NCBI GenBank assembly: GCA_030141605.1
Contig: JAQGDQ010000040.1
Location: 1-64,000, forward strand
Source: Tubiluchus corallicola
Taxonomy: Eukaryota; Priapulida; Priapulimorpha; Priapulimorphida; Tubiluchidae
Length of the DNA stretch: 64,000 bases
Direction of reading: 5' to 3'
The notes below the pieces were generated by a model that was not told the DNA's origin, did no database searches, and saw nothing but the letters and a program-made list of their open reading frames with translations. The position numbers were made by a program, and so were the translations under genes. The stretch's first letter is position 1. Every line of letters starts with the position of its first letter. Below are positions 6,301 to 51,693 of the stretch, piece after piece.

Positions 6301-7763
6301 TAAATAAACATAAAAAATGAAAATATGGAATACAACTTAAAACTATACTATTTTTACATGCCTGTACAAAATTCTCCAGTAAATAAAACATTCTTAGTTC
6401 AGAAGTGGTGCTGACAAGCCACTGACTTAAAATTTTTCTATAAGTTTGAAGTCTACAGTCTTTATGCTGGTCTTTTTATGGCTATGCATCTTGTTGCCTG
6501 CAATTTTCTCAGTTTATGTATTGGGGATTTGGAATGGAGAATGGTTTAATATTTCATCAGAGTACATGAAATGCCAAAAATTAGAATTGGATCACTCAAC
6601 GTTAGAAGTCTTAGAACTGATATCAAAAAAGGAAATTAAATAAAAGATTTTGAAGTTTAAATTCAGCTAAAGTAGTATGCAGCACTTGCAGTACCCAGCA
6701 TTTTTTCAGTGGTTATGTGTTAGTGGCGTAATATCAACAGCCAGATTTTTAACTTCCAGGCCTACGATTTTCTTGTGTACATAATTTTAAAAGTAGAAAT
6801 ATTTGGTGTCTAATGTGTTAAATAAACTTTGTTGCTAGCTTTGTTTGCTTTGCTTAGGTCATGATAAACTATGATGTTATTATGTTCTTAAAAAAGTGAC
6901 TTATTGTGACACAACTCCTTTCAAAAATATAACCTTAAAAATTGAGTAGGTTATTTAATTGTATTTTGCTTTAAGTATATTGTTGCTATTGGCTGTCTAG
7001 GTGTGTTAAATAAATGCTGTTATTGATCTTGTTTACTTTGCTTGAGCTGCAGTCATAAATGCATTTTCTGGCTTCTTCAAAAAAGGTCACTTTCTGTCTT
7101 GACATAAAATGTCTTGTTATCATAACATTAAACATTATAGCTCTTTTTTTACTTGTGATTTAAGTGTATTTTTGCTAACAGGTTTCTTTGTTTTACTTAT
7201 TTTTTGCAGCACCTAATGGATATGAACTGCCAGTGTATGCCAACTTTAAGGATGACACATTTACTTGTGAGTATATGGTAAAGGATGTAGGAGTGCATAG
7301 AGTGAATGTAGATTATCCACCTGGGCAACCATTACCAACCAGTCCATTCATCGTGAAAGCTTATGATCCTACGAAAGTCATAGTGTCCGACATAGCTGGT
7401 CGAGTTAAAGAAATCGCTGAATTCACTGGTAAGTTATGAGATACTCAATGCATAATTTCTTATAGGATGGAACAAAATAGACAAGAAACTGTGTATGACT
7501 AGTTTGTGTTTAATTTGCACAGCCTGAAACATTATTTTACATAACACATTTTATAAATATTGAAAATAACAAAATATATTTCTGCATAGTTGATGCCAGC
7601 GCAGCCGGGGAGGGAAGCCTGGATATCAGTGTTGAATGCAAGGGACGTGTCTTGCCTTGTCAGGTATATCCGAAAGGAAATGCCGTGTTTGGAATCTCAT
7701 TTACACCTGCCGAAGAAGCGCCACATTATGTCACGGTGACGTTTAACAAGCATCCCGTGCCAG
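351..7763 (+). CDS. Filamin exons 1-9: repeats before the hinge
   Basis: Exons: 351-494, 1015-1182, 2639-2782, 3812-3895, 4664-4801, 4915-5082, 5961-6113, 7210-7428, 7590-7763. All introns are phase 1. They encode filamin repeats: exon 1 has GSPFPVRAYDP, exon 2 opens VDASDAGSGSLD, exon 3 resumes at GSPW, exon 5 has GSPFTFRAYDP, exon 7 starts GCPF, exon 8 has TSPFIVKAYDP, and exon 9 opens VDASAAGEGSLD and ends at VPG. Exon sizes repeat as about 140, 168-174, 144-153 and 84 bases, so four exons encode two repeats. In exon 8 the 84- and 138-base units are fused. Splice sites are canonical GT-AG throughout. Confidence 0.9.
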
Positions 7764-10700
7764 GTATGTAATTTTCGCTGACAGTTTTATCGTTGTACAA
7801 CCAACCACCCAAATATTTCAATAATTTTTTCTCTCCTGCTTGGAAGCTTAGGAACCTATCCTACGTAAGCTGTACTTGGGTGCTGCCAAACAGAACATAT
7901 ATTAACCCTTCCATAAGTGCCATGTTTGGTTTCCATGAAGAGAATAAAAACTTGTTCTTTCTACGGCAAAAGAAAAATGACAAAGTGCTTTTCAGTATGT
8001 GAAGATAGTATGTGAGAGAATATTTCAATGCAAGCGCTTGACTTGCTCTTGGATTGGTTTCTGGATGTTTGCTACGTAACAGATTTAACATGCTGTGCAA
8101 TTTTTTACAAGGCTGTATGTAGCAAAATTTTATGCAAAAAGACAACAACACCTTCATGACATAGAAATTAATTGGGAATGCTTGCTGAGGTTGGAAATTC
8201 ACGTGTCAGAACTGCTTAGTTCATTTACGTTGTTTGTTTAGCAAATATAGAAAATGTAGTGCACCGTGACTTCTGAGACACTCTGTATGTGAAATAATTT
8301 ACTTTACATCAGATTGAGCTATTAGGCTGCTTAAGAATAGTACTTAAATAAGTACTGTCCAAAGACCATGTGTGTAAACAAATAAGCGAAGTCCTGTATA
8401 AATGGTCATTGACATTGTCCTAAGGGCGATAGGTCACTAAATTGATCTCTTATGCTATAACACTCACTATGTCCATTGCCGTATGCATTTTGTGGCATAG
8501 AGCATTGCTTTAGAGTTCACTTCAGATGCAATATATAAGCATTTTCGGAATTTATTCAGTGTCACAGTTTGAGCGTCCGTTTCTCTAAATTTTGTCTGAG
8601 TTAATGTTTTTAAATCACACATTCTCCATTAGAAAGCTCATCATCTCTTTACTTCAGAAATTTATTTCGTGCGACACTTTTTCTAAACCCGATATAGATT
8701 TCCTTTTTTTGTTTCAGTTTTGATTCTTTACAAATCTTGTATTAATTTTAATAAAATCAAGAAATTTTAAATTAATAAATTTAAGAATTAAATTTCTTAC
8801 TATGTTTTTATCGTACTACAGTTCTATTTTTCACTCACGTAAATTCTAAAATGCACTTAAATAATACTGTTTTATTCATATTACATTATCTCTCTCAAAA
8901 AATCATCAGCTTTATCTTTCTCTGTGCTTTTTTCTGTTAACTGTTAAATATGAAAACACAATTATACGCATGAGCAAAACTATATGCATTCCCAACACCA
9001 ATAGCTTAGCTCACAACTCGTTGACTGATGACACAGTTCTAAAATAACTACTCATGCTGGACAGGTACTAATTGAAGTGAACTATATAATCTTCTTCCTG
9101 TGATTATGGTTGATTATGATGGCTCAGAACTGGTTCCAGGCGTTTATTATCACACCTTTCTTGTTCACTGTTGGTAGTCTCTCATTTGTGTGGTTCAGTT
9201 GTTTTAGCAGATTTCAAGCAGCATTTCTGTAAAATGTGTGACGTGTCAAAAAGTATTCGTGTTTGATGTCAAACAAAATCAATAAGAAGAATAGATTTGT
9301 AATTTACATTAAAGTTTTTTTAGGTGAGGTTAATTGTAATTTTATTATATCATAGTTGAGGTGCATTATCTTCGTGTTCCTCACTTATGTGTAAGTTCTT
9401 TTTATAGTCTTCATAGTTCATTGTCTTTTGTCTATAAATTTCAAATTATGTCCAGAATCGTTTCATCTTGTTTATTATCTTGATATTTTTAAGAAGTAGT
9501 TTATATAGGTAAAAATGTTGCCAACTTATAAAGCAATGCAGATATTACATTGTAGTTTCAAGGGTATATATTTCTTTTTTACTTTTGTAGTGAGGTGTTA
9601 GTCAGTTTAAAATATGGGAACTCAACAGTGTCAACACTCATTTGATCCTAGATATTTTTTTGCAAGACCCAACTATAATAGCTTGTTACATATGGAAATA
9701 CTTCTTATACATGCTAAACATGATTGAACATTTTTTTGTGCGAGTGACAGTTATGTATTTATACGAGTTGATAGCTTTCTCTTTTTTACTTTAACTTATG
9801 CTTTGCACTTTGGTATATTGTACACACCAATCAGTTTATTCAAGTTAGAAATTTAACCTCATTTGTTTCATGTATAAGCAGAAATCGGCAGAACAACAGT
9901 CGTGTTGTAGAGCATAAGTGGCTCGTTATACCAGCTTGAGAATAACTTAGTAACCTAGGATAACAAAGTCGGGGCTTTTTCAAGTGACTTTTCACAGTTT
10001 TTCTTGTAATTACACACAAGTGCCTAGTCAAACTGGCTGTTGTAACAGTTGACTGATAATTATATTGTAAACATTGGGATAAATGCAACTTTAAACCAGT
10101 TACTTTAAACATAGATTAATCTGCTATTTTCAGACGTTTCCACCAACAAATATTTTCTAAAATGGCAAATAACATTAAATAAATTTATTAATGAAATACA
10201 AAAAAGTGTTAAAAAATGTAAAAATATTATCTCAAAACATACTTCACCAATGCAAATTTAGTTAGAAACATCTCTTATGCAAAGAACCAATGAGGAAAAC
10301 TTGTATGCAGCCAAAACAATTAAAAGACAATTTTAATTTTAAATAGACTTGTATGTTCCAGTGACCCCTAGTTGATAAGTGAATCTGATGCAAGGTGGAA
10401 AAAACAAGTGAAAGAATAATATTTTCAATATTCTACATATGACTTAACGCAGTCATTTTTCTGCAAGTTGAAACATTCCCGGTCTTTATCAAAAAACATT
10501 CATTAATTTTAATTTATTTAGCATTATCATAGCAAATGAACTATTATATGTATTCAGCTATAGCACCTCTCTTCTAAATGTAATGTAGTTACTGTAAATT
10601 TGTCATATTTTCTGTAAAAATACAATTTCAAACAGTTTTATTGATAAATCTATTTGTCCAAGTAACAGATCAACAATATAGTTACAAGTGTAAAAAGTAA

Positions 10701-13700
10701 ATACAGAAGTACAGTAACAGTTAACCTATCTGTTAACCTATTGTCAGATAAATAACACTAATTCAGTATTCTACAAATATGATAAAGTGAGTATGACATG
10801 AATTCACACTTCAAATAGTAATTTACAATAAACAAATGAGGGTTACAACGTATTTTGATACAAGAGTTTAAAAATACATTATTTTCATTACAATGTAGTG
10901 GTCATTACAATAAAAAATAGCTTGTAATTTCTATAAAGTAAAATGATTGCACTTCTGTTGAATGTTTTTTGCTGCTGAAATTTCACAAATATTTGCTGGA
11001 CAAATATTTGCTAACTCGTGAAATTGCGGCATATCTTAATAGTTGTTATCACTTTTCACCACATGATAAACTCTACACACACTTTTTATCATCTTACATG
11101 AAAAATGCTTTGTTACAATGTGTTGTCAACAAACATTATTGAAAAAATGTAACGGAAGTATATGAGAACAAAGCCCTGTTAGTACTATATTTGACATTAC
11201 CTAGTACGTCATCAACAGTCATTTTATATTAGTGTTTTCATGCTATTCTACGAACTCATCACTTCAGTTACATATACAGCACTAGTTCTCATGTCGTGGT
11301 CATGATTACTGTAAAAATATGCATATGAATTTTTTCTTTGTCCATAAATAATGCAGTAAGGCTTAATTAAGAGGTCATTGCGGTAAGCCACTGAGGATGT
11401 ATAATCTCATCCCGATACATGTCTGTACACTGTGCACGCATTAATTTCATTTTGAAGTGTAGTACAAGGGCGCGATTGCAGCTACCAGCGTTATAAGCAG
11501 GTGGAGCCATTTTCTACACCTTTAATTGTTTGCTTTCCGTTACTCATAGGTAACTTATGAGGTGTTCCATTGAAAATGTCGCCGCTCTCTTTTGCCAAAG
11601 AAGCCCTTTCTGTAGCTAATAATGTCTCCCTTCTAGACTGCAGCATGAGGCTTTCTCTTTTGAGCGAAACATTGCGACTGGGTGGATCTGTCTGTGAAAA
11701 TGCCCATTCTTGAGAGCCTCTCCGTGCACGAAAACCTCTCCTGCCACAGATGCAATCGCGGACCTCGTGATTTCGATAGCAAAAAACTAATGCAACCAAG
11801 ATGCCTTGTAGTCCCAGCAGAATGTTATCCACGATTTGGTATTGATGGTACCCTTTTGTGTAACATGGAGGTCGGTAGAAGGTTGGAAAGTAAGTAAACC
11901 CCACCAGTGGCAGCATTGTGATGACTGCTCTGAGGGTTTTTTTGAAATGTTTCCAACCTCTTATTTTGTCTAGGGTGTCCTCATCCAGTTTATGAATAAT
12001 TAGGTGAAGGACTTTGGCCACAAAGATTATGCTCAAGATAAATGATGCAACACCAAAAGCGTTTAGAATCCATTCTAAGTTTCCTGCTGGATTTGCCCAG
12101 CATTTTTTGTGATATTCGTTTACTAAATACCTAGCCACAATATACACTATTACTGGCACGATAGGAAATAGCCATCCAATAAGATACAACCTCGTTAATG
12201 GCGTTCTTCTGAACACACTAATGATTACCCGATAGAGATAATAACACTCACAGAACATCCATGTGTATTTTGTAAGCATGAAGTACTTATGAACAAAGAG
12301 AGTAAGTATGACACATCCAATGTCATGAAAACCAACACTGGCATTTGCTTCTTCTGCTGTTGTATTGAGTTTTAACTCAGAGCTATTGTACATAAATGCA
12401 GTTTCTCTACTGTCGAGTGCAATTTCATTTCGGCCCATTCTTTCTCGATAAGGATAAATGATTAGTATATCATATGTAATAAAGAGAATTGAGCTAAGTA
12501 AATGGGAAAGGAGAAAATTTACATGCACAATATTGCGATTTTGTCGTAACCTTTTATAATATAAGAAGATTATAATTGCTGGCATTATAAATATGACATT
12601 AATTCCTAGAACAATATCACGTATTATTAAACGGGTTTTCACCATTTGTGAAATCACATCTGATTTATTGTAACATTCAGCATATGACGTAAATTCTCTT
12701 TCAGCTTGTCTACATGTATCCCACTTTACTTCCCAGGTTAGGTTGCCTTTAGCCACGCACCGCTTCTCTGAATATGCAATTCCATAATAAGGGCAGTAAC
12801 TCGTGAGATGCACGGGACACTTTCCTCGTACAACATCGCCTGCTGAGGCTTTTTCCCAACATTGTAACCCATCCCATGTCGGAGGACACATACCCTGGCT
12901 CTGCTTTGGAATCTGACTCACTATATGTTCTTGGCAACAGTCCGCAGCTGTTGAAACACACTCATACCACTGTGCTTTCTCTTCTGGCCTGCAGTTGATG
13001 TTAGTCAAGTTACTTATCAGAGTGAAAGCTGATGGGAACACAGGACAGTTATAATACTCCCAAACAAGATGGAGCGTGTCTTCCTGAAACAGTTCCATGT
13101 AGCAAAATGTGTATGATGCATCCAAGTATGTAGCATAATCAACATATCCAAGATCTACAATATGACAGTATCCATTTTTGTGCTTTAGCTGCTCAATGAT
13201 CTTTCCATCTTCTTCGTCTGCTGGGCATTTATTTACGTTTGATGTTGGAGATTCTACTTTGTCACTTACAAATCCATAAACACTGAATATCAAAATAGAT
13301 ATAATTGCTAATCGATACATGATGGGCACATCACAAACTTTTGCTTTGTTTACTTGTGAACATAACAACTGCGAGTTTGGTAATTAAATCAAATTGTAAA
13401 TGCATAAAATCAGTTTGGTTCACATTCACAACAAATTGATGTTCCTTTGTTCCTTCATAACTTTTGGCAGAATGATAAACTATTACGACAAACAGACTTG
13501 AGCTTGCGCAGTAAGTGTGCCTGGGTGTTTGATACGTAAAGTATTTACTTTACCTAGCTGATTTGTACCTTACACAGAGATCAAAGTCACAAGCCTGTAG
13601 CATTAACTACATAAATAAGTGAGATGTGTCTTTTCATACATACCTTAGATGGTGGAACATGTATAACTAAACCAGGAGTCACTGCTTAGAAAACAGTTAT

Positions 13701-16700
13701 AACTGGTGCACAGAAAACATGTAATTACATTTTAGTGTTTGATCTTAACCGCTTTAACTCCAAGTCATTAATTTTTCAACTCAAAAGCTCAGATGTAGGA
13801 AAATTGGCCAAAATTTACCAAAAAACTGTTTTAACTTTGTCTTTGTCTGTTTTGAAACTAAAATTCGCTCGTCAGTTATTCATTGAAATGTACTTTCAAT
13901 TTGTCCATAATTTTTAAATTTAGTTTCAAATGTATTAGCAGGGTGAAAATTGTTTCAAAGCTAGCAACAGTAACAGCAGCAGCAACAGTAGCAGTAGCAA
14001 CATCAACATCAACAACAGCAGCAGCAAGATCAACAACAGCAACTGCAGCAGCAACATCAACAACAGCAACAGCAGCAGCAACATCAACAACAGCAACAGC
14101 AGCAGCAACATCAACATCAACAACAGCAACAGCAGCAGCAACAACATTAACACCAACAGCAGTACCAACAACAGCAGCAGCAGCAGCAGCAACAACAACA
14201 ATAAAAAAACAGCTACAACGACAACTACAACATCAGCAGCAACAACTACAACAAAATAACAACAACAACAACAACAACAGCTACAACAAGAACTACAATA
14301 GCAACAATGACAACATTGAATAAATAATCTGATGACATTAAAGGCACTTCCTGTTACGTTATTTCTGTTAAATAATGATATTGTTTATTATGGCTGCATC
14401 GACAACAAAAATAGCGACAACGACAACAGCAGCAGCAAACAAACAACAGACAACAAACAACAACAATGTCAACAATGACAACGTGAAATAAATAATCTGA
14501 CGACATTGCTCCTGCACTGAAAATGGAAGTAAATGGCATGCCCGTAGCAAGTGGTGCTTGTTTCAGGAATAGCATAGCAATAAAATTTTCAGTCGTGAAT
14601 GAAACTGCAACCCGTAATTTTAAAGGCACTTTTTGCTGCATTATTTAGCTTAAATAATGATACTGTTATAGTTCTTTTGCTTATCTTAACACTATAACTT
14701 TCTTGCAATAATGACTTGCTTTATTTTTACGGATAATAGTTTAAAGTGTATTAACAGGGTGAAGGTCTTTCTAACGACGACTACAACAACGATGATGATA
14801 TGAATTAAGTAACCTAACGATGTAACTTTTCGATGTAACTTTTTATTAATATTGTATCATAAATGTCTGTTATAAATTGTCTTTGTTACTAACCTGTAAT
14901 CACTTACTTATTTTTTATCTCTTCATGTACTAACTTTTTTTATATAGCGATCGCATTGATGTACATATCGTGTTGATCAAAAATGAATGATAATAATAAT
15001 AATAAATTTGTTATTTGTAGGAAGCCCATTCCTTGGTGTTATCGGAGATGGTGAGCGCATTGAGAAAATAACACAAGCAAAGGCTAACTTAGCACACAGT
15101 AACTTAGTCCATACTTCAGACCTTCAACGTTCAAGCAGTTTGCAACAGAGTGCAACACAACAGCAGCAAGAGAGTCCACGATACTACACCTCCGAGCAGT
15201 ACAGCCCCCACCATCGAACTGTTGAAGCCTACCGATCGCACGGACACAGTCCTCAAGCAGGTGTGGCACGATCCACAAGCAAGTCGTACAACCGCAGCTA
15301 TTCTTCCACTTCCACTACAGTAACAAAATCACATTCGGAACGTAAGGGAGAAGGAAAGAGCAAAACTGTGATGTCTGGTAAATCATTAATGTTAGATGTT
15401 TTTACATTGAATTTTTTTTCCTAAAAACTTGTTTCAGTTAGATGGTAAATTTTTATAATGCTGCAAATGCCCATATTCATAGTTATTGCGTCAGCATTCT
15501 TAACTGACAAAAAACTTGTTAAACATTCGATGAATTTCTTGAACTTAATTTTTGAAAATATTTAGAATAACAGGCCCTCCAACATTTTTGTGAGATGAAA
15601 AATTGTTTACTCAGATGTTTCAGGTAGTTAACATATCTTCTTGGATAAATTATCAAAAAAACGAAATAAAAATAGATTAGCAAATAAAGAGGTTACTTCA
15701 ACATGTAACATAACTAATATTTAAAGTACAGGGTGTTTGAAAAGTCCCTTATTGCTGAAAAAATTATTGAAATAGCTATTAGAAGAGGAACTAGATGACA
15801 AATTGGTAGCTGATTTTACAGTTCATGAGATTTTGCTGGCATCATACTTGTCATCAAGACAGAGTATAATCATAGCTGCACATTGACTGGAGGTTGACAA
15901 CGTGTTGCAACTTGCTGTAGAGCAATTTTACTTTTTAGTCTGCTCTAGAATGGTATAGCAGTGCTGCAAGCTTCATTTCAGTTATAGACTCTCAAAAAAA
16001 TCCCATCTCACTGAGTGTACCACAAGACGATTGGTAAATTAGCTGTAAAGGAAATTGAAAGTAAAGCTAGTGAGAGACTTTTGAAAATCCCTGTAATATC
16101 TGTGTAATTAGTAATAAAATTTAGTCACAATAAAGAGAAAGGTTATTCTTTAATAGCTTTACTCCCGATGACGACAAAACTGCTTAAATCATTTTTATTG
16201 AGGGTTAAGGTGGTGGAGATTGTCTGTCCATTGCAATGGATTTAAATGCACATTAATAAAAAGCTTCTTTATTTTTTTTCTAAGGTTATGTGGATGAGAA
16301 ACAGTCATCATTTGTACAAGATGGAGACAGGCCACCACAAAAGGATGAGAGTCGTTACACAGTTACAAAGTCTGCTGTCGACACTCCAGAGGTTTGTTAC
16401 TAACAGCAATGTTTAAGTAACTAATGGTTGCAAAACTAGATTATTGTTATGTATATTAATTTTATATCTAGCTGCAATGTATGTATAATACTCTGTTGTA
16501 AGATGTCACTCAGAACAGTTTCTAGCGTGATAATGGTAAAAAACGATATTATACAGCCGAGGTTATTATCCATAGACTAGGTTGAAATGCAATGCATGTT
16601 CCAGTTAATACCTTCTGTTAGGATTATGATCCAGTGTTTGGTACACGTTACACAGATGAAATACAAGAAGAACTGCTATTCAACACACGAACAGAACGAA

Positions 16701-19700
16701 CGAAATTTTAGACATTTGGAATTTAATAAATAGCTTTTAATAATCAGGCATAGAATATTTTTCTTACCGAAGCTACCAACTGAAAGATGCCATGATTTGA
16801 TCTAATCATATGGAAAATGCGTGCATGCTTTCTGAAACCAAACATATGCAGTTATTCATAAATATCTTTGCATGTGCGGTGGCATAATTAGCAGCCAGTT
16901 TTTGCTGATAGGGATAGAATCAGCGATCACATGAAATGCATGAATTATGGAACACTATTTAATTTCTTTCTGTGAAACTGGTTACAAACAGCATTTACAT
17001 TGCTGAGCGCAAGATATGTGAAGAAATAAAATATTCAATTACCATGAAGGGTAATTTATTACAACGTTTAGCAACAGCTCCTCAATATGTAGTAAAAAAC
17101 AGACCATACTCATTCACTTCAGAGAGGCTAAACAGCCATTTAAAATTGCTAAACTGTGCACAGATTCCACAGTGATTAAGCTATGTGAAAAGATGATTTC
17201 TCCATAACTAATATAGTGTTTTCTCTATTTTCTCTGCTTCGCCTATAAATAACTCAAATTAGTCTGTTTGGGCAATTTGCATTCTGAGTGGTTTTCTTGT
17301 ACTCTTATTTTTAGATTTTGCTTGTCTCTTATTTTTACAAATTTTTAATTGCGAAATAAATGAGCTAAAGGAGTTTTTCAGTAATTTTCTCTCTGCTTTT
17401 TATTTATTTAATTAAGTAGATGAAAGTATGTGTACATACGTGTAGTTATTGAAGAAAGTAGATAATACATGATATGTAGATGATGCATAAGTAGAAGGTA
17501 AATGAAAGAGAGTAGTTGTTCTAAACACAGTTATGATGACATCACACTGTGGTGAAGCAAGGTGCAGTAAATGGTTCCTGCAGTTCTGATGATTGGTGGC
17601 AACACTGTATAGAATTTCAATATTTTATTTTCTAAAATATGCTTTCAGTACGCTGACTCTAGAATGAAACTGACATACCGAGTACAAGATGAACCAGAGC
17701 GGGTAGAAGAACATCGTACAACTGTAACGAAATCTCACGATGGTCCAGACACTGTTCACCGATCAGTTGTGAAGTAAGATTGTGCAATTTGTTCAGTTTG
17801 AAGTTGCCTTAGAAATTATAGTTTGTATCTTCATTCATTATTTTCCTTGATTTAAAAAAACACATTAATGATGGTATAAACCAATGAAATTAAATTTGAA
17901 ATGCTATAAAGAGAAAGTGTGAAAAAGTTAGAACACCGCCTGGATTTGAGTCAGGGACTTTCTACTTACAAGCCAGACATTTAATTTCACGTTTGTTGTC
18001 AAATTTAATTAATTTTTGGTTTATGCCATCATAATAATAATCTTAGTATTTAAGATTATAAATAATTAAAGAACACATTAATCACTGTGATTACTGTCGA
18101 AGAGAAAAATTAATATAGCATTCTGTCTATCTCATTGTCTCACTTTTTTAGATCTGGAGATAGAGGTTTTCCAGCTATTGAAAGAGAAACGTCTTTCCGT
18201 TCCCAGTCATCCGATCATTACGATCCCTCTTTCCGTTCACAGCCTTCGGAGCCGTATGATCCTTCCTTGCGATACGCTTCAATGGAACGAGGCTACGAAC
18301 ATGACAGGCCTCAACGCAGTGGTGCTCACCACGAATCATCACACCGTTCCAGTTCATCACACAGTTATGACAGGTCTTATCAAACATCCTCAGCATCTGG
18401 CCACAAACATGACGAACTTTACAGGTCTCCTGTAGATCCCAATTTCAGAACTGCAGGTATAGAGAGTCAAGATAATATGGCGTACAAGTCTGAACAGATA
18501 CAAGAGAGTCGAGTATCTCCACCATCATTTTCTCAGAGAGGTGGGCCTTTGAATTGGTGCTTCTTACGTTTTTTAGTATGTATTACTGTCCGAAAGATTA
18601 TGTTAGCAGAAAGAACATTTCTGCTATATGCTCTTGTAAGTTGTGTTACTTTTACACTTTTATTTATTTTATTTATTTCATGCTTGTTTATCTCTTGTAG
18701 AAGTGGAATCTCCTGTCAAGTCTTTCAGTACAACTCAAGAGCACAGCGGTGCTCATAAGAGTAGCCACGTTTCTAGAACGGAGTCTAAAAGCTCTAGTCG
18801 GGTTACTAGCCACGCCTACTCTTCAACACAACAGCAGCCAGGTGCAAATGAAAACTCCAATAAATTTAATATTTTGAAATAAACCATAAATTACTTTTCT
18901 TCTACTTTTTTATTACCCTTTCGCCCAAATGCCTATCTGATGGTTTTCGTCAGATCTGAGGTGACATGTTTTCGTATCATAAATAGATATTAATACAGTC
19001 ACGTAATGTAATACTGTAAAAACAACAGTACTTGCCTAGGAGCTCAGCAAACTGTCAACTATGTATTAGTAATTTAGCAGCTTTGTTAGCTTGCCAACCT
19101 TTTTTTGCAGCCAACATAACATAATACATATAGAAACTTAGATGATGTAAACATATGCATTCAGTATGAAAAGACTCTTGAATTAGGTTATCATTTTTCT
19201 TCTAGAACTGGAAACGATGGAAGTAAAGCGTGAAGCAGAAACAGGTCATGCAATAAAAGATGAGCCGGACAGAAGCTTGCGGGAGAGTACTACTAAACGC
19301 ATTGTGACTACACAAGAACTGAGCAAGGTTTTGCCCCACTTAAGATTTGGTTAATAAATCGCCAATTTAGTATTAATTATGTAAACTGAAGTATGGTGAA
19401 CAGTTTACTTTGTTAGTATTTTGTAGTGATGTAATATTGTGACTTGTATTTTATTAGGTAAGAGTAGATGGGCGGGGCATCAAAATAGCAACTCACAATA
19501 TGCCGGCTTACTTTGTCATTGACTCACGGGGACAAGGAGAGCCAGAAATTTCTATAATAGGTGTGCAGCATATATTGTTACCAGTCACTCATTTAATTAA
19601 TTGTTTTGTTCTTATTTTGATTGTTTGATATTCGATATTGATTTAATCAGTAATATAAACTCGTATTTTTTACGTCACGCTTTTGGTTACCAGATGCAAA

Positions 19701-40256: not shown

Positions 40257-51693
<11,437 letters not shown>

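Follow-up and report, generated by a model that had tools for sequence, protein, structure and literature searches.

The genome of the priapulid Tubiluchus corallicola carries an intronless class B1 G protein-coupled receptor (GPCR) gene that is nested antisense in a filamin intron and that very probably arose by an old retroposition from a parent resembling its split paralogue on contig C2123, followed by duplication of the intronless copy. The gene was analyzed within a window of 64,000 nucleotides, the whole stretch of DNA under study. The original prediction for this locus held that a complete intronless class B receptor is nested antisense in a filamin intron and that it represents an old retroposed copy that stayed functional. 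The completeness of the gene and its nesting were both confirmed. The third element stands as far as the split paralogue, the loss of introns, and the signature of selection are concerned, but the gene is not the sole intron-free copy, as it has an intronless sister on contig C2043.

Structure of the receptor gene and its filamin host

The receptor is encoded in one frame of 609 codons from the first ATG to the stop (609 amino acids plus stop), and the chance of a random open frame of this length is approximately 9e-21 at the base composition of the window. The protein is laid out as a signal-like N terminus (judged by eye), an extended ectodomain, an HRM domain, seven helices, and a C-terminal tail. 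Both domains of class B1 receptors were recognized by Pfam: the 7tm_2 match (E = 3.9e-33, 115.2 bits) spans profile positions 7-250 of 250, and the HRM match upstream of TM1 (E = 1.3e-6) scored 29.1 bits against a cut-off of 26.2. The protein also matches solved class B1 receptors, the best of them being PTH1R, with a match that begins at residue 144. A structure prediction for the window protein, which drew on two sequences only (the protein itself and its C2043 sister), gave a mean pLDDT of 34.5 and was set aside.

The host is a filamin-repeat gene, as 14 of the 59 matches to PF00630 listed for the genome fall in the window, all of them on the plus strand, with four to the left and ten to the right of the receptor. 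The exon ending at 7763 (CCAG/GTATGT) and the exon starting at 15021 (TTTGTAG/GAAGCCC) join in frame in phase 1 to give NKHPVPG/SPFLGV; the latter exon is without a listed Pfam match and was assigned on the evidence given in Table 1. The receptor coding region lies entirely within this one intron, on the opposite strand.

Judged by eye, Ser/Tyr/Gln-rich exons (window positions 15021-15400 and 18114-18550) seem to be interposed among the filamin repeats of the host gene directly after the intron that bears the receptor.

Table 1. Features of the receptor locus in the window, and introns of the split paralogue on C2123 that recur in more distant split paralogues
Feature	Position	Strand	Remarks
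Filamin exon left of the receptor	7590..7763	+	Filamin repeat; acceptor GCATAG before 7590, donor at 7764
Filamin-gene intron enclosing the whole receptor	7764..15020	+	7,257 bases, GT-AG, phase 1
Class B1 (secretin-type) GPCR, single exon	11491..13320	-	ORF and Pfam
Seven-helix domain of the receptor	11794..12624	-	Pfam 7tm_2
HRM domain of the receptor	12718..12891	-	Pfam
CAA/CAG-rich tandem array, without known role	13990..14315	.	Between the receptor start and the next filamin exon
Next filamin-gene exon, right of the receptor	15021..15400 (end approximate)	+	Begins GSPFLGVIGDGER...; splice signals, frame, GSPF motif
C2123 intron c|d			Phase 1; matched in C1248 and C2118
C2123 intron e|f			Phase 2; matched in C1248 and C2118
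C2123 intron g|h			Phase 1; matched in C1248, C2118, and C1024
C2123 intron i|j			Phase 0; matched in C1248 and C2118; acceptor matched in C1024
C2123 intron j|k			Phase 2; matched in C1248 and C2118; compatible in C1024
C2123 intron k|l			Phase 0; matched in C1248 and C1024

Split and intronless relatives in the same genome

Searching the 343.5-Mb genome with the window protein returned 10 matches at an E-value of 0.01; two close relatives are located on C2043 and C2123, and exons on C2118 and C1248 matched more weakly. The C2043 protein as a query gave nine matches, including C2118, C2123, and the window gene. Among the best-scored candidates in the searchable stretches of the genome, it revealed no additional copy without introns. 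The C2043 gene (396219-397814, minus strand) is a second intronless copy, with one open frame of 532 codons from the first ATG, and shares the ectodomain pattern with the window receptor. The original prediction had proposed looking for an intron-bearing paralogue and comparing intron positions; such a paralogue was found on C2123 (349733-341345, minus strand), where 13 exons were modelled, the first for the signal peptide and the last for TM7. Each of the 12 introns in this model has GT-AG ends, and the joined frame has no stop; the model does not include the exon(s) of the C-terminal tail, and the donor of intron d|e (GTGGGC) is weak. The window gene (C1820), the split paralogue, and the intronless sister are located on three different contigs.

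The window receptor is identical to the C2043 protein at 259 of 518 aligned residues and to the C2123 protein at 186 of 475, and the latter two proteins agree at 189 of 474 positions. C2123 resembles the window receptor in its extended ectodomain pattern (G.C...LGY, CCQ.H, and CP.TWDGLQCW) and its seven-helix core; however, it has 12 introns in the modelled coding part compared to none in the window gene, and the first extracellular loop is longer in the window protein according to the alignment. A host gene of the C2043 copy was sought among 10 ORFs, nine from its two 7-kb flanks and one from its own 5.5-kb locus (drawn from the 27 ORFs of at least 70 amino acids listed for three loci), and none of the 10 had a Pfam match at an E-value of 0.01.

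For a census of related genes, 19 HRM matches were grouped by locus with 57 7tm_2 matches, and six identical copies were counted once. Loci with both domains comprise eight split genes (C2123, C2118, C1248, C1024, C570, C562, C1542, and the C1974 set), two single-frame genes of the peptide type (the window gene and C2043), and a single-frame gene of the adhesion type (C2227), and two HRM loci (C26 and C268) are without a listed 7tm_2 partner. The DNA examined covered part of each of the 11 loci with both domains (one copy for the identical set), left out the HRM exon of C1024, C562, and C1542, and yielded a model of nearly the whole gene for C2123 only. Eight 7tm_2 matches are full length in a single frame; five of them belong to methuselah-like genes and one to an adhesion-type gene with leucine-rich repeats, both judged by eye, and these six were not counted as evidence for retroposition. 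The five genes with methuselah-like ectodomains are located on C984, C2248, C1732, C232, and C2027. The adhesion-type receptor (C2227:35479-39564) has 1,362 codons and an HRM match in addition to its repeats.

A 1,500-base stretch that includes an HRM exon from a different class B1 receptor is 100% identical on C1752, C1831, C1974, C2072, C2074, and C2107, and the span from HRM to 7tm_2 is equal to the base on all six contigs. These contigs most likely reflect assembly redundancy, not six genes. Searches with the haemocyanin domain of molluscs (PF14830) and the cuticle domain of arthropods (PF00379) returned no match, a result that does not establish that these domains are missing.

Intron positions and the direction of change

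All 12 modelled introns of C2123 are absent from both the window gene and C2043. For the exons available, the C2123 boundaries were compared with the boundaries in three more distantly related split genes, C1248, C2118, and C1024. Six of the 12 introns were matched in place and phase in at least two of these paralogues (Table 1). For three others (b|c, d|e, and f|g) the phase agrees in C1248 and C2118, in a gapped and variable stretch that leaves their place uncertain, and two (the intron after the signal exon and a|b) fall outside the comparison. The remaining intron, h|i (phase 2, at window residue 406), has no counterpart in C1248 or C2118, and thus single intron losses also occur in the family.

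The TM7 exon, which is 42 bases long in vertebrates, has the same length of 42 bases in C2123, C1248, and C1024. The available text of a study of the secretin family describes a TM7 exon as highly conserved, and its reference list includes a 14-residue TM7 deletion in a calcitonin receptor (PMC3659299). From the six shared introns and the recurring TM7 exon, we infer that the intron-rich gene came first and that introns were lost, not gained. The opposite account, in which genes without introns came first and the split ones acquired theirs later, found no support in our analysis. It conflicts with the six intron places and phases that C2123 has in common with two or more other split paralogues, with the 42-base TM7 exon and the family pattern in the portion of PMC3659299 available, and with the nested position of the intronless pair among split genes (see below), and we regard its probability as negligible.

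A second account keeps the direction of change but has the introns lost piecemeal and in place, by cDNA gene conversion or successive deletions, with a later translocation into the filamin intron. The lack of the phase 2 intron at residue 406 in C1248 and C2118 is in line with such a course. Against it stand the loss of all 12 modelled introns and the location of the gene inside the intron of another gene, as a retrocopy predicts, and we consider it very improbable. Under the preferred retroposition reading, the intron positions suggest that the spliced mRNA of a many-intron, C2123-like class B1 receptor would have been reverse-transcribed and inserted, whereby the introns would have been removed at once. 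On the opposing side, no run of eight A was present within 1 kb downstream of the window gene, and the short direct repeats flanking it include no convincing target-site duplication, although neither trace is expected in a copy this old. The nearest minus-strand AATAAA, moreover, lies approximately 850 bases downstream of the receptor (10642).

Phylogeny and order of events

The maximum-likelihood tree of seven sequences was built from the 303 columns that hold a residue in at least five of the seven rows; those of C1024, C2118, and C1248 were assembled from exon pieces and fall short of full proteins, and the C2118 row carries one spurious residue where two pieces meet. The window gene and C2043 are sisters in this tree with a support of 100/100, and C2123 is joined next (97.9/100). 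Placing C2123 beside either the window gene or C2043 was rejected by the AU test (p = 8.6e-5 and 5.8e-5, respectively), which was performed on five of the seven sequences, leaving out the short C1024 and C2118 rows. The common stem of the window gene and C2043 before their split measures 0.53 substitutions per site, and the intronless pair falls within the split genes when PTH1R is taken as the outgroup.

The simplest account of this topology is one retroposition on the shared stem, followed by duplication of the intronless gene, although the number of events, one retroposition with a duplication versus two retropositions, rests on parsimony. In the latter case, a C2123-like parent would have supplied the mRNAs for the window gene and for C2043 on two separate occasions, in agreement with their location on different contigs. 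Between the filamin intron and approximately 19.5 kb around C2043, nothing is shared beyond chance-like stretches of 18-42 bases (best E = 0.008); dispersed copies would give this result, but so would any old duplicate. The two intronless genes are, however, mutual closest relatives at 100/100 with a long common stem of their own, and two events from one parent would call for a parent on that stem that has since been lost or was very different, which makes this alternative unlikely. With a single retroposition, the tree suggests that the intronless gene would then have duplicated to give the C2043 copy and the antisense copy in the filamin intron. Since its intronless sister resides on another contig, the nested receptor gene may represent either the original insertion or a later duplicate of it.

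Selection on the intronless copies

Over 515 codons, the window gene and C2043 differ at 203 first, 134 second, and 327 third codon positions, corresponding to NG86 values of 0.32 for pN and 0.83 for pS, the latter being saturated so that dS is undefined. Polarised by C2123, the changes on the window branch amount to 58 of 247 first, 41 of 302 second, and 77 of 160 third positions (rates of 0.23, 0.14, and 0.48), and those on the C2043 branch to 55 of 244, 49 of 310, and 101 of 184; the changes were counted by parsimony with a distant outgroup, which makes the third-position rates rough. On the branch of the window gene, changes were 3.5 times as frequent at third as at second positions, so its protein has been under purifying selection. 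The codon-position pattern shows that both lineages were kept as proteins under purifying selection in the past.

Receptor sub-family and comparison with known systems

Judging from the class B1 family, the window protein would act at the plasma membrane as a peptide-hormone receptor that catches its ligand with the HRM ectodomain and signals through a G protein; class B1 membership implies that it should bind a peptide hormone and couple to a G protein. Approximately 120 residues lie upstream of the HRM domain, some of them conserved in all three paralogues (the window gene, C2043, and C2123), and this region may hint at a ligand type of its own. The best solved relatives of a three-sequence profile are PTH1R (E = 8.4e-57), CALCRL (3e-56), and CALCR (6.6e-55); the nearly equal scores of these human receptors do not separate the PTH type from the calcitonin type. 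Human PTH1R shares approximately 27% identity with the window receptor (94 of 354 residues). The candidate sub-families are the calcitonin type, the PTH type, and the protostome clusters described in the available text of two invertebrate class B1 surveys (PMC3961327; PMC7200681). In the portions of these surveys available, "intron" occurs once in PMC3961327, as part of a protein name, and is absent from PMC7200681.

Judging from the accessible parts of two reports, the birth route proposed here is already known from molluscan nicotinic receptors (PMC6896357) and moth opsins (PMC10642689). As far as the former text goes, the molluscan intronless genes arose by retroposition and then tandem duplication, a route like that of the window gene, from an intron-rich parent to an intronless copy and on to more intronless duplicates. 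They encode ion channels, however, and a single species may have as many as 120 of these intronless genes, many of them in tandem arrays (PMC6896357), whereas the window gene and C2043 are class B1 GPCR genes in two copies on different contigs. The Noctuoid LW opsin retrogene, according to the text at hand, is likewise an old, retained GPCR gene of retroposed origin, and it is expressed; in contrast to the window gene, it encodes a class A opsin and belongs to moths (PMC10642689). No report of a retroposed class B1 peptide-hormone receptor was found in the literature searched, which covered few subscription papers.

Skipping of the TM7 exon is reported for other class B1 receptors in the part of PMC3659299 available. 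The window gene cannot skip this exon because it has no introns. The pair offers a clean comparison between related receptors that are able and unable to be alternatively spliced.

Possible interference with filamin transcription

The receptor would be transcribed from a minus-strand promoter of its own, and filamin splicing would remove the whole receptor locus, so that the two mature RNAs need not overlap. The layout of the two genes allows interference between them, and antisense receptor transcription might regulate filamin by transcriptional interference, an idea that is compatible with the retrogene origin. In its favor are the geometry, with the whole receptor antisense within the intron, and a mammalian precedent in which, according to the available text, a nested gene makes its host end early (H13/Mcts2; PMC13309782). 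Nevertheless, we consider such regulation quite unlikely. Still less probable is a broader scenario in which one retroposed mRNA would have founded, in this animal lineage, an entire sub-branch of peptide-hormone receptors that lost all splice-made forms, such as those from TM7 exon skipping, and gained an antisense control site in the filamin gene, making receptor and filamin transcription mutually exclusive. The locus is a ready case for asking whether a nested antisense gene disturbs its host.

Elsewhere in the window, an ORF on the minus strand (51100-51474) resembles, by eye, the start of a cullin-4 protein.
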